Of a stretch of DNA of 23,334 nt, positions 18,182 to 20,208 are shown in pieces. The notes under the pieces are model-generated. The model was not told where the DNA came from. It saw only the letters and a program-made list of their open reading frames with translations, and searched no databases. Source of the stretch: a virus; IMG/VR virus record IMGVR_UViG_3300020472_000173, positions 1 to 23,334 of that record; one strand, written 5' to 3'. Position 1 is the first letter of the stretch. Each line of letters starts with the position of its first letter. The translations under genes and the position numbers were made by a program.

Positions 18182-18305
18182 ATGGAGCATAGATGACCTT
18201 CGTAAAGCGATAGTTGACAGTGCAGCAGAGTATGATAGAATAGTTGAAAACATAAAGGAAAATGAGTCTGAGAACAGAGAAGAGACGAGCACAAGTGAAG
18301 AGTAG
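18168..18305 (+). CDS. 45-residue acidic ORF
   Basis: A short frame beginning MEEIKWSIDDLRKAIVDSAA and ending in an acidic, Ser/Glu/Asn-rich tail (NREETSTSEE). It begins 14 nt inside the end of the oxygenase-like gene and overlaps the next gene by 44 nt. The N-terminal two-thirds is a plausible amphipathic helix. No family is recognised and no Shine-Dalgarno sequence is visible. It fills the only gap in an otherwise gap-free operon, which supports it being real, but it is short. Confidence 0.5.
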   Translation: MEEIKWSIDDLRKAIVDSAAEYDRIVENIKENESENREETSTSEE

Positions 18306-18453
18306 ATTTTATTATCTCTTCTGGGGTATTGCTACCTTTTCAGTAGTTGCTGGTCAAGTATATGTTGGTGCAGGATACCGAGCGTATGCAGGTGCACTCA
18401 ATAGATTATTTGATACCATTGAAGTTCAAGTAAATGAACCAAGATTTTACTAG
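18262..18453 (+). CDS. 63-residue single-pass membrane protein
   Basis: A small protein with a basic N-terminus (MSLRTEKRRAQVKSR) and one hydrophobic segment at about 16-38 (FYYLFWGIATFSVVAGQVYV), then a soluble C-terminus. By the positive-inside rule the N-terminus should be cytoplasmic. An AAGGA sequence lies 2-3 nt before the ATG, closer than usual for ribosome binding. No family is recognised, although small single-pass proteins of this kind recur in T4-like cyanophages. It is the last gene of the gp5-talC operon; no terminator is visible directly after it. Confidence 0.65.
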   Translation: MSLRTEKRRAQVKSRFYYLFWGIATFSVVAGQVYVGAGYRAYAGALNRLFDTIEVQVNEPRFY

Positions 18454-18497
18454 GCATAAATTTTTATTAAATTGTCCTTATTCCAGGACGGAAATAT

Positions 18498-18505
18498 TAT
18501 AAATA
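18498..18505 (+). promoter_or_regulatory. T4-type late promoter of a short unit
   Basis: An exact TATAAATA in the intergenic stretch that follows the membrane-protein gene. It lies 87 nt before the 54-aa ORF. The transcript would end at the terminator near 18806-18829, giving about 320 nt. Confidence 0.75.
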
Positions 18506-18528
18506 GTAATGAAGTTTAGGAGACCAAG

Positions 18529-18537
18529 ATGCACTGA
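18529..18537 (+). other. two-codon mini-ORF (Met-His-stop) with strong RBS
   Basis: ATG CAC TGA is preceded by TTAGGAGA (18517-18524), a good Shine-Dalgarno sequence at normal spacing and close to the predicted transcript 5' end. It precedes the 54-aa ORF, which also begins ATG CAC. It may be a translated leader or an accident. Confidence 0.4.
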
Positions 18538-18584
18538 AAACTCTCTACATCATGAGTTAATCTTTCAAATTTCACGGAGTAACA

Positions 18585-18749
18585 ATGCACAATATTAGAT
18601 CACAAAATCAGCTAGCTGAGTGGAAGCACTTAAAAACAGATTACTGTTTGACAACCCCTCAAGAAGAATTAATCGACGATTACTTCGCTTGTATTGTCAA
18701 TAGCAACAGTAAAGCAGAAGAAAAAATATGTCAAGAACTGCTCTGTTAA
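18585..18749 (+). CDS. 54-residue Cys-containing ORF in its own transcription unit
   Basis: The ORF starts MHNIRSQNQLAEWKHLKTDY and ends KICQELLC. It has four cysteines (21, 36, 49, 54), with the last residue being Cys, and is mildly acidic and helical. No family is recognised. Support for it being real is a ggag Shine-Dalgarno sequence 5 nt before the ATG, an upstream consensus late promoter (18498-18505) and a terminator downstream (18806-18829). It is the only full-length ORF of the 414-base stretch between the membrane protein and the fibre gene. The four Cys could bind metal or respond to redox state, which is speculative. Confidence 0.65.
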   Translation: MHNIRSQNQLAEWKHLKTDYCLTTPQEELIDDYFACIVNSNSKAEEKICQELLC

Positions 18750-18797
18750 ATAAGTGTTTTACCTTTTTCACAGTCAATAGCATCATATATTGTGCAT
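18585..18797 (+). repeat. 11-bp inverted repeat spanning the 54-aa ORF
   Basis: Bases 18585-18595 (atgcacaatat), beginning exactly at the start codon, are perfectly complementary to 18787-18797 (atattgtgcat), just upstream of the terminator hairpin. Pairing in the RNA would close the start codon against the 3' untranslated part. Confidence 0.5.
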
Positions 18798-18805
18798 ATT
18801 ACTCA

Positions 18806-18829
18806 AACCCCCAGTAAAGGGGGTTTTTT
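18806..18829 (+). terminator. rho-independent terminator
   Basis: A stem of aaccccc (18806-18812) with gggggtt (18819-18825), a 6-nt loop and six T residues (18824-18829). It ends the short 18498-18829 unit and lies immediately before the late promoter of the fibre genes. Confidence 0.88.
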
Positions 18830-18833
18830 GTCG

Positions 18834-18841
18834 TATAAATA
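18834..18841 (+). promoter_or_regulatory. T4-type late promoter for the fibre/structural genes
   Basis: An exact TATAAATA lying 4 nt after the terminator T-run and 26 nt before the GTG start of the next gene. Confidence 0.8.
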
Positions 18842-18867
18842 AAGTTGTAGCAAATTGTTAAATCGCA

Positions 18868-20208
18868 GTGGCAACTAAAAGAATATCCCAGTTAGAAACA
18901 ATTTCCAATGCTCTAGTAACTGGTGAAGCTATTCTTCCTATTGTTATCTCTGATCCGCTAATACCTAATAGAAAAGCAAAAGTAAATCAACTTTTCCGTG
19001 GTCTTAGTGCAGGATCACAGGCAGCTCCAGGACTGGCTTTTGACCTGGACAGAGACACTGGAATATACCAGACTGCCATTGATGAGATAGGACTCTCATT
19101 TGGTAGTGCTGCTCTCTATAATAGTCGAAGAGAAAATACAGATGGATCAAGTACTCTATTAATTAGAGCAATTGATACTGCATCTGCATCTTCTAGTATG
19201 GAGATGACACCACAGGGTAGTGGTTTCTTCACAGTTAATGGATCTATAATTCAGACTGATGCACAGTTCTTCTTACAAGGTGATCAAAACACTGGTAAGA
19301 GAGCACATTTTAATGTAGATACTATTTCTACACAGTCAGGCACACGTCGTTTCGATCTACCTAACGTTGGTACTAATACAAGTACAACGTTGGTTGCTAA
19401 TGACACATTCCAGACTTTAACTAACAAGACTATCCTTATTAAGGACTCTGAGTTACAGATTACAGGATCTACTGCTACTGACAAGATCGCTAAGTTTGAG
19501 ACTGACGCATGGGAGTCACCAGGTGCACATACTTACAAGTTACCTGACTTTGGTGCAGCACAGACACAATCTACATTACTTGATGATATAACAAGTCAGA
19601 ATGTATTCAACAAGAATATGGTTAACCCCACATTCTCTAATACACCTTCTGATGATGAGAATAACCCAACTCGTTTTGTTATATTTGATTCATCTGGATT
19701 AACTAATAACAGGACTGTTACATTCCCTGACCTTAACATCAAGATAGTTGGTGAGGCATCTTCTCAAACTATTACAAACAAGGTTTATAAAGGAGCAATA
19801 TTCTGTGATACTGATCCTGCTGATGGTGAAGGTAGAAAGATACAGTTTGATCTCTCTAATATAGAAGATAACCAGACTTATACTTTCGCATTCCCTGATG
19901 ATGACCCTACTGCACCTCTCAATACTTCAGGTGTAAACGTCCTAGTTAGTGAGTTAAAAACACAGTTCCTAAAGAATAAAACGTTAGAATTGTGTAAGCT
20001 AAATAATCCTAACAACGTTAATGGTATTATCAATTTTGATGCCAGTAACATTGACGAAAGCGTTACTATTCAATTCCCCAACGCTGATGCAACCCTACTA
20101 TCTACTAATAACATTAGTGATGTTGCAATTAGTTTCGGTGGAGCACTCGCAGCACCTACGTTAGGTGGACAAATACGACTACAACAACATTTCTTATCAG
20201 GTTGGTAA
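18868..20208 (+). CDS. repeat-containing tail fibre / virion structural protein
   Basis: A 446-residue protein beginning at GTG (18868), directly after a consensus late promoter; there is no Shine-Dalgarno sequence. The N-terminus (KRISQLETISNALVTGEAIL) is the short 'ISxL...G.E.LPI' pattern seen at the start of many phage fibre or baseplate-attached proteins. Residues about 50-85 (GLAFDLDRDTGIYQ) look like a beta-rich fibre segment. From about 145 to 415 there are five degenerate repeats of roughly 45 residues, each with an F-x-x-S/T-x-I unit, an FP-D strand, an L-V turn and a T-NK-T motif (for example QTLTNKT and QTITNKV). Such repeats usually form trimeric beta-structured fibres. Its receptor or attachment point cannot be read from the sequence. 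Confidence 0.8.
   Translation: MATKRISQLETISNALVTGEAILPIVISDPLIPNRKAKVNQLFRGLSAGSQAAPGLAFDLDRDTGIYQTAIDEIGLSFGSAALYNSRRENTDGSSTLLIRAIDTASASSSMEMTPQGSGFFTVNGSIIQTDAQFFLQGDQNTGKRAHFNVDTISTQSGTRRFDLPNVGTNTSTTLVANDTFQTLTNKTILIKDSELQITGSTATDKIAKFETDAWESPGAHTYKLPDFGAAQTQSTLLDDITSQNVFNKNMVNPTFSNTPSDDENNPTRFVIFDSSGLTNNRTVTFPDLNIKIVGEASSQTITNKVYKGAIFCDTDPADGEGRKIQFDLSNIEDNQTYTFAFPDDDPTAPLNTSGVNVLVSELKTQFLKNKTLELCKLNNPNNVNGIINFDASNIDESVTIQFPNADATLLSTNNISDVAISFGGALAAPTLGGQIRLQQHFLSGW
19300..20110 (+). repeat. five degenerate ~45-residue fibre repeats
   Basis: Units begin near 19300, 19480, 19669, 19840 and 20023. The shared core is F-D/N-x-S-x-I/L followed by a T-x-x-F-P-D strand, then L-V and the motif L/I-T-N-K-T/V. 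The second and fourth units are the most diverged. Confidence 0.7.

Follow-up and report, generated by a model that had tools for sequence, protein, structure and literature searches.

The window, by which we mean the whole stretch of 23,334 bases that was analysed, is an IMG/VR virus record and belongs to a T4-like cyanomyovirus, with PHROGs matches to baseplate, tail tube and hub genes and to a transaldolase. A short late-gene cassette lies between two of its genes, at 18498-18830, and the late promoter motif, leader mini-ORF, 54-aa ORF and terminator that had been predicted there are all present, as is a second late promoter motif after the terminator. The features of the region, with positions in the window, are as follows.

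18262-18453: upstream neighbour, phrog_2000 (PHROGs match).
18451-18465, plus strand: conserved upstream element TAGGCATAAATTTTT, which occurs in this exact form once in the window.
18474-18489: 16-nt dyad GTCCTTATTCCAGGAC, just 5' of the late promoter motif.
18498-18505, plus strand: T4-type late promoter motif TATAAATA, in a position kept among relatives; by itself not significant.
18518-18522, plus strand: AGGAG, the SD-like stretch of the mini-ORF, from sequence.
18529-18537, plus strand: two-codon mini-ORF, ATG CAC TGA.
18577-18595, plus strand: 5' arm of helix P4, made up of the RBS and the start codon (GAGTAA, a 2-nt bulge, ATGCACAATAT).
18585-18749, plus strand: 54-aa ORF of the phrog_665 family, with conserved Cys36 and Cys49 (profile match, dN/dS, Cys pattern).
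18624-18633, plus strand: 5' arm of helix P5 (approximate), coding, including CACTTA.
18750-18759, plus strand: 3' arm of helix P5 (approximate), in the 3'UTR, including TAAGTG.
18787-18804, plus strand: 3' arm of helix P4 (ATATTGTGCAT, one unpaired base, TTACTC), abutting the terminator.
18805-18830, plus strand: intrinsic terminator, hairpin 18805-18826 and T run.
18834-18841, plus strand: second late promoter motif TATAAATA, before phrog_692 and outside the cassette.
18868-20208: downstream neighbour phrog_692, a virion structural protein (PHROGs match).

The motif TATAAATA occurs three times in the window, both strands counted, against 2.4 expected, so its number is not above chance; its weight comes instead from conservation in place, since the same position holds TATAAATA in 18 of 19 loci of the clade to which the window belongs and NATAAATA in the remaining one. 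A terminator-like hairpin with a T run was found once in 18450-18900, where 0.1 would be expected. At the sequence level the cassette therefore has the make-up of a T4-type late transcription unit, with TATAAATA upstream and a terminator downstream, from which we infer that it is transcribed. The loci compared were the window and L001-L108 (109 in total), of which 96 were used after 13 re-fetched or duplicate ones had been left out; removal of those with flanks more than 93% alike gave 60 distinct loci.

Further elements lie upstream of the promoter motif. Of the 60 distinct loci, 28 have a form of TAGGCATAAATTTTT 117-139 nt 5' of the ORF, and the element is present at unrelated genomic sites too, for example in Syn9 and S-PRM1. 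Among the 47 of the 60 loci whose promoter box could be placed by script, the dyad before it reads GTCCN8GGAC in 7 (mean of 0.0 in shuffles) and GTAN8TAC, the NtcA-box consensus, in 13 (0.4 in shuffles). The GTAN8TAC form sits 5-12 nt from the promoter box; in NtcA-activated promoters the spacing is roughly 22 nt, which is farther. An NtcA-activated promoter was rejected for the window, where GTCC-N8-GGAC stands in place of GTA-N8-TAC. NtcA sites in cyanophages have been reported (PMC3037559). A sigma-70-like site (11/12, with TG before the second hexamer) lies at 18214-18241, 5' of phrog_2000 and within a 45-aa ORF.

The 54-aa protein matches phrog_665 with E=2e-13 over residues 1-53 of 54 and profile positions 1-55 of 56; the same family bears the name T4-like cluster GC 363 (Syn9 gp134). 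Values of dN/dS were 0.06-0.24 in seven of nine chosen pairs of relatives, the other two pairs differing in length, and the 54-aa ORF is therefore a real gene. Equivalents of Cys36 and Cys49 are present in all 63 distinct proteins encoded by the fetched loci. The inner Cys pair of a twin CX3C motif is complete in 36 of these and wholly missing in 27, and Cys21/Cys54 occur together in 21 and are both missing in 42, with no protein having a single member of either pair; a further cysteine without partner is found in 10 of the 63. The window's clade stands apart from the rest of the family in having no inner Cys pair while possessing Cys21/Cys54 and the fold-back described below. These sequence patterns, which shared ancestry explains in part, suggest that the cysteines are paired, through disulfide or metal, and give a hint that the peptide could sense redox state or metals.

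An AlphaFold model of the protein has three helices (pLDDT 78, pTM 0.51). Neither the 18 fold matches in PDB nor the 128 in BFVD included one at E<=0.001, and the sequence profile gave a single match against PDB (E=0.97). Alpha-hairpinins carry a twin CX3C motif, and one of them, BWI-2c (PDB 2lqx), was fourth in the fold search and shares the helical hairpin; unlike the phage protein it is a plant trypsin inhibitor, and the match, at E=4, is not significant. The highest 19-residue Kyte-Doolittle mean is 0.38 for the peptide of the window; the maximum for the 63 distinct relatives is 0.62, and none of them reaches the hydropathy of 1.6 sought for a hydrophobic membrane peptide.

A tblastn search with the 54-aa protein matched 275 phage records when the limit was E<=0.1; at E<=1 there were 338, and the names of all 338 start with Synechococcus, Cyanophage, Prochlorococcus or Marine. 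The phage collection contained nothing closely related, the best protein identity being 44%, and the window's clade is known here from metagenomic contigs alone. Of 55 candidate stretches from the collection of bacterial and archaeal genomes, 5 encode a relative; the five MAG contigs concerned (L128-L132) are 5.7-36 kb long and are all labelled as non-cyanobacteria (Euryarchaeota, Flavobacteriales, Rhodopirellula, Bacteriovorax). A host origin of the gene was considered and rejected, these contigs being taken as cyanophage contigs that were probably binned wrongly.

The setting of the cassette varied among 17 named phage records fetched with their neighbours. It lies between tRNA-Asn and gp3 in P-SSM7, after gp23 in Syn9, S-RIM12 and S-H25, 3' of gp32 and a phosphodiesterase gene in ACG-2014d, beside pstS in S-SSM7, beside tRNAs in P-RSM6 and amid small hypothetical genes in S-SRM01, with further settings in other records. 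Within the window's clade it stands between phrog_2000 and phrog_692 in every locus long enough to include both, sometimes with several hundred extra bases between these genes. In an orientation survey whose loci include some re-fetched copies, the cassette follows its neighbours in the window, L001, L002 and L004, as it does in L003, where the downstream side alone is visible, and runs opposite to them in L005-L011 and L033-L059; most loci of the clade carry it inverted at this one site. Whether inverted in place or found at unrelated sites, the cassette keeps its promoter motif, leader, ORF and terminator together, which bears out the original prediction of a self-contained unit, and the cassette is probably movable. 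A search of viral contigs with one leader pattern retrieved 18 contigs, and phrog_665 follows the leader in 17; the fetched stretch of the other, L124, stops 81 nt on.

The main feature of the cassette, a long inverted repeat linking the start codon to the 3'UTR, had not been part of the original prediction. The start region at 18577-18595 is complementary to the end of the 3'UTR at 18787-18804, and the two form a helix of 17 pairs in the window (P4). Conservation of this complementarity was assessed by a partner test, in which the 5' arm of each locus is paired with its own 3' arm and with those of other loci. A group of 19 loci had first been picked after the pairing had been seen, and the test was repeated on 21 loci selected solely on their neighbouring genes, which adds L007 and L054. 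Across the 21 loci the duplex energies of cognate P4 arms sum to -326.7 kcal/mol; with permuted arms the sum is -209.8 (sd 15.1), which puts p at the permutation floor of 5e-5. The test was again at the floor when the 5' arm was restricted to its non-coding part (-127.7 versus -82.2, sd 8.2, p=5e-5) and when the set was reduced to 18 loci whose arms are all distinct. A second helix, P5, which joins the coding sequence to the proximal 3'UTR, gave -361.0 versus -320.7 (sd 7.8, p=5e-5) for the 21 loci. Many single folds also contain a further candidate helix, P1, which joins the 5' end to the pyrimidine stretch preceding the RBS; the permutation p of P1 is 0.42, and this helix is not claimed.

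Parsimony on a tree of the 19 loci assigned 30 two-sided and 17 one-sided changes to P4 pairs, counts in which one insertion or deletion may register as several changes and in which all positions are paired by construction, the states being those of each locus's best duplex, so that the permutation test serves as the control. Positions -9 to -1, which precede the start codon, account for 25 of the 30 two-sided changes, and positions -7 to -3 each show 3-4 Watson-Crick types. The three positions of the start codon are paired in 15, 17 and 18 of the 19 loci. The arms of L005 and L034 consist of wholly different letters and still lie over the RBS and reach the start codon; L007 and L054 have 8 and 7 pairs only, and L115 and L127 share the leader and do not have a strong helix. 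The 3' end of the unit is complementary to its own translation start, and this complementarity is kept by covariation; we are confident that P4 and P5 form a covarying structure in the clade.

Folding of the unit points the same way. Its z-score against shuffles is -5.1 in the window with the terminator and -4.3 without. Among the 60 loci, the unit without terminator has a mean z of -3.1 in the 19 clade loci versus -0.3 in the 41 others, and predicted pairing of the start codon with the 3'UTR is 0.84 versus 0.06; in these family-wide folds the ATG used for L005 and L034 is 9 nt downstream of that used in the partner-test, mini-ORF and truncation analyses. Long-range pairing as strong as that of the clade is absent from the 39 of the 60 distinct loci that lie outside the syntenic group, although predicted start codon-3'UTR pairing is 0.51 in L089 and about 0.27 in L014 and L024. 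Most of the family shows no fold-back, so the protein can do without it. Folds of some non-clade loci (for example L067, L068 and L101) predict local pairing between the start codon and an upstream stretch of TTGTGC type, with the SD in the loop, and such pairing could possibly be another way of masking the same start.

The 3' arm of P4 is the last part of the message to be made before the terminator, and truncated transcripts differ in predicted accessibility. Mean start-codon pairing in the 19 loci is 0.40, 0.39, 0.40 and 0.49 at successive cuts (0.40 at the stop codon, 0.49 at stop+35) and 0.85 for the full-length transcript, values that describe equilibrium folding, not kinetics. The window itself goes from 0.39 at the stop codon and 0.34 at stop+35 to 0.95 at full length. 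Five of the 19 loci gain less than 0.25 between stop codon and full length, namely L004 (0.59 to 0.66), L009 (0.55 to 0.72), L010 (0.53 to 0.73), L034 (0.18 to 0.31) and L044 (0.31 to 0.55), and L009 and L010 reach 0.72-0.73 as early as stop+35.

The leader is conserved as nucleotides, so that conservation of the unit is not confined to the protein level. Mean pairwise nucleotide identity in the 19 loci is 0.76 from the start of the leader to the mini-ORF stop, 0.73 in the proximal 3'UTR and 0.80 in the ORF; outside the clade, leader and protein are mostly retained, whereas the fold-back is not. An aligned mini-ORF AUG is present in 54 of the 60 loci and missing from 6, and a permissive pattern finds an SD-like stretch before it in 52 of the 54. 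It starts 45-56 nt 5' of the main start, in a leader predicted to be structured. By length, 35 of the 60 loci have a mini-ORF of two codons, 4 of one codon, 8 of three to nine and 7 of ten or more, a classification that depends on the script's choice in loci with several AUGs (L015, L027 and L101 among them) and on an AUG chosen by hand in L010. In shuffled leaders, 8.6% of ATGs meet a stop at codon 3. The two-codon form is present in all 19 clade loci, and it occurs overall in 13 codon/stop combinations, related loci not being independent. Several relatives retain the RNA motif GAAAAC and do not have the early mini-ORF stop, and selection on this motif is an alternative to selection on the stop codon. 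A subgroup comprising L013, L060, L068, L094 and L104 has lost the mini-ORF AUG as well as the late-promoter motif and keeps other letters of the leader.

The simplest model is that of a message that would be translatable while it is being made and closed once finished. The cassette would give an mRNA of about 320 nt, whose product, of the phrog_665 family, would be a helical protein of 54 aa in which the cysteines are paired. As long as transcription is under way, the start codon would be mostly accessible, which would allow a few translation rounds; synthesis of the last ~20 nt preceding the terminator would then let the 3' arm pair with the RBS region and start codon to form P4, and its closure, abutting the terminator hairpin, would cap the protein yield of each transcript. 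The start could be reopened later by 3' trimming or unfolding, and the leader with its two-codon mini-ORF may hold a ribosome on the leader, or protect or tune the RNA. We infer repression, reopening and the role of the mini-ORF. That the mRNA masks its own start and so represses its own translation is, for the clade alone, a reading we consider reasonably probable, and it is better supported than the dual-function RNA also envisaged in the original prediction, for which no direct support was found. A broader proposal is put forward tentatively, as possible but doubtful: the cassette would be movable and independent of orientation, a 'self-closing' unit in which the minigene and a fold-back formed only at termination jointly set how many rounds of translation each transcript undergoes, so that it acts as a kinetic dose limiter. 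The joint claim that such a device arose outside toxin systems and was kept by compensatory change in a cyanophage clade known only from metagenomes is equally speculative.

Other explanations account for parts of these data. The long-range pairing might mainly protect or close the RNA (stability, control of decay or a double-stranded processing site), with occlusion of the start as a side effect; P4 lies directly against the terminator and P5 encloses the ORF, so that the RNA is compact and closed, and the icaR pairing of the same kind also makes an RNase III substrate, according to PMC3868564. We regard this as unlikely, however, since P4 spans the start codon in most of the 19 loci and the entirely dissimilar arms of L005 and L034 both cover the RBS. 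It is more doubtful still that the RNA itself, in a dual-function or regulatory capacity, is the functional product and the peptide secondary. Identity in the leader and proximal 3'UTR does come near that of the ORF, but the low dN/dS indicates strong purifying selection on the protein, which is also conserved in phages that do not have the fold-back, and the Rfam families, including Downstream-peptide, wcaG and PhotoRC-II, gave nothing above gathering score in the window and seven relatives save tRNAs in L012 (best sub-threshold match in 18300-18950, E=0.46).

A small late gene of the usual kind, with an unremarkable leader and an incidental fold, would fit the absence of a fold-back from most of the family members examined; this reading is very unlikely given that P4 and P5 both reach the permutation floor in the partner test, P4 even with the 18 distinct-arm loci. 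Least probable of all, in our estimate, is a killing or takeover module of the phage resembling type I toxin-antitoxin systems. The combination of a small ORF with a 5'-3' long-distance interaction recalls hok and aapA, and an upstream ORF is found in mok-hok as well (as described in PMC6733600 and PMC8309996), but the hydropathy of the peptide is not that of a membrane protein and the opposite strand carries no antisense promoter of the kinds sought: on the minus strand of 18450-18900, a search covering sigma-70-like promoters and TATAAATA found neither.

Among the matches listed in the literature searches there was no published description of the unit. Known systems resemble separate parts of it. 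The Downstream-peptide and glnA RNAs of cyanobacteria and cyanophages likewise place a structured leader before a short ORF (PMC2864571), although the window matches no Rfam family at gathering score; CfrI is described as antisense at psbA (PMC5931967). Two-codon minigenes in leaders are reported to alter expression of the downstream gene, and one raises expression of txe (PMC8708949). The minigenes of txe and of EHEC LEE1 ler share with the cassette an ATG-codon-stop with an SD 5' of the main ORF, whereas that of the cassette recurs across a phage gene family and lies in a leader predicted to be structured.

The closest parallels to P4 are mRNAs that pair their own ends. In the icaR mRNA of Staphylococcus aureus, the 3'UTR is reported to pair with the SD region and to interfere with initiation (PMC3868564); the motif involved there is UCCCCUG, within a long 3'UTR, whereas the 17-pair helix of the cassette spans the start codon beside the terminator and covaries among relatives. 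In the aapA and hok toxin mRNAs a 5'-3' interaction masks the start (PMC6733600, PMC8309996), the start of the full-length hok/aapA message being covered by its own 3' end and opened by 3' trimming, and compensatory changes have been reported for local hairpins of this family (PMC6733600). The cassette resembles hok/aapA, on paper, in its small ORF and in a start covered by the mRNA's own 3' end. It differs in that the peptide is not hydrophobic and no antisense promoter is seen (sigma-70-like or TATAAATA), and in having a T4-type late-promoter motif, a phage genome as its setting and a two-codon mini-ORF instead of mok. As a compact system it lends itself to testing, and its paired-cysteine peptide may be a phage effector that responds to redox state or metals. 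The self-inhibiting 5'-3'-paired mRNAs of the papers cited are those of toxin genes and of one bacterial regulator; if the self-masking reading is true, a covarying cyanophage example with a late-promoter motif shows that the device is more widely used.
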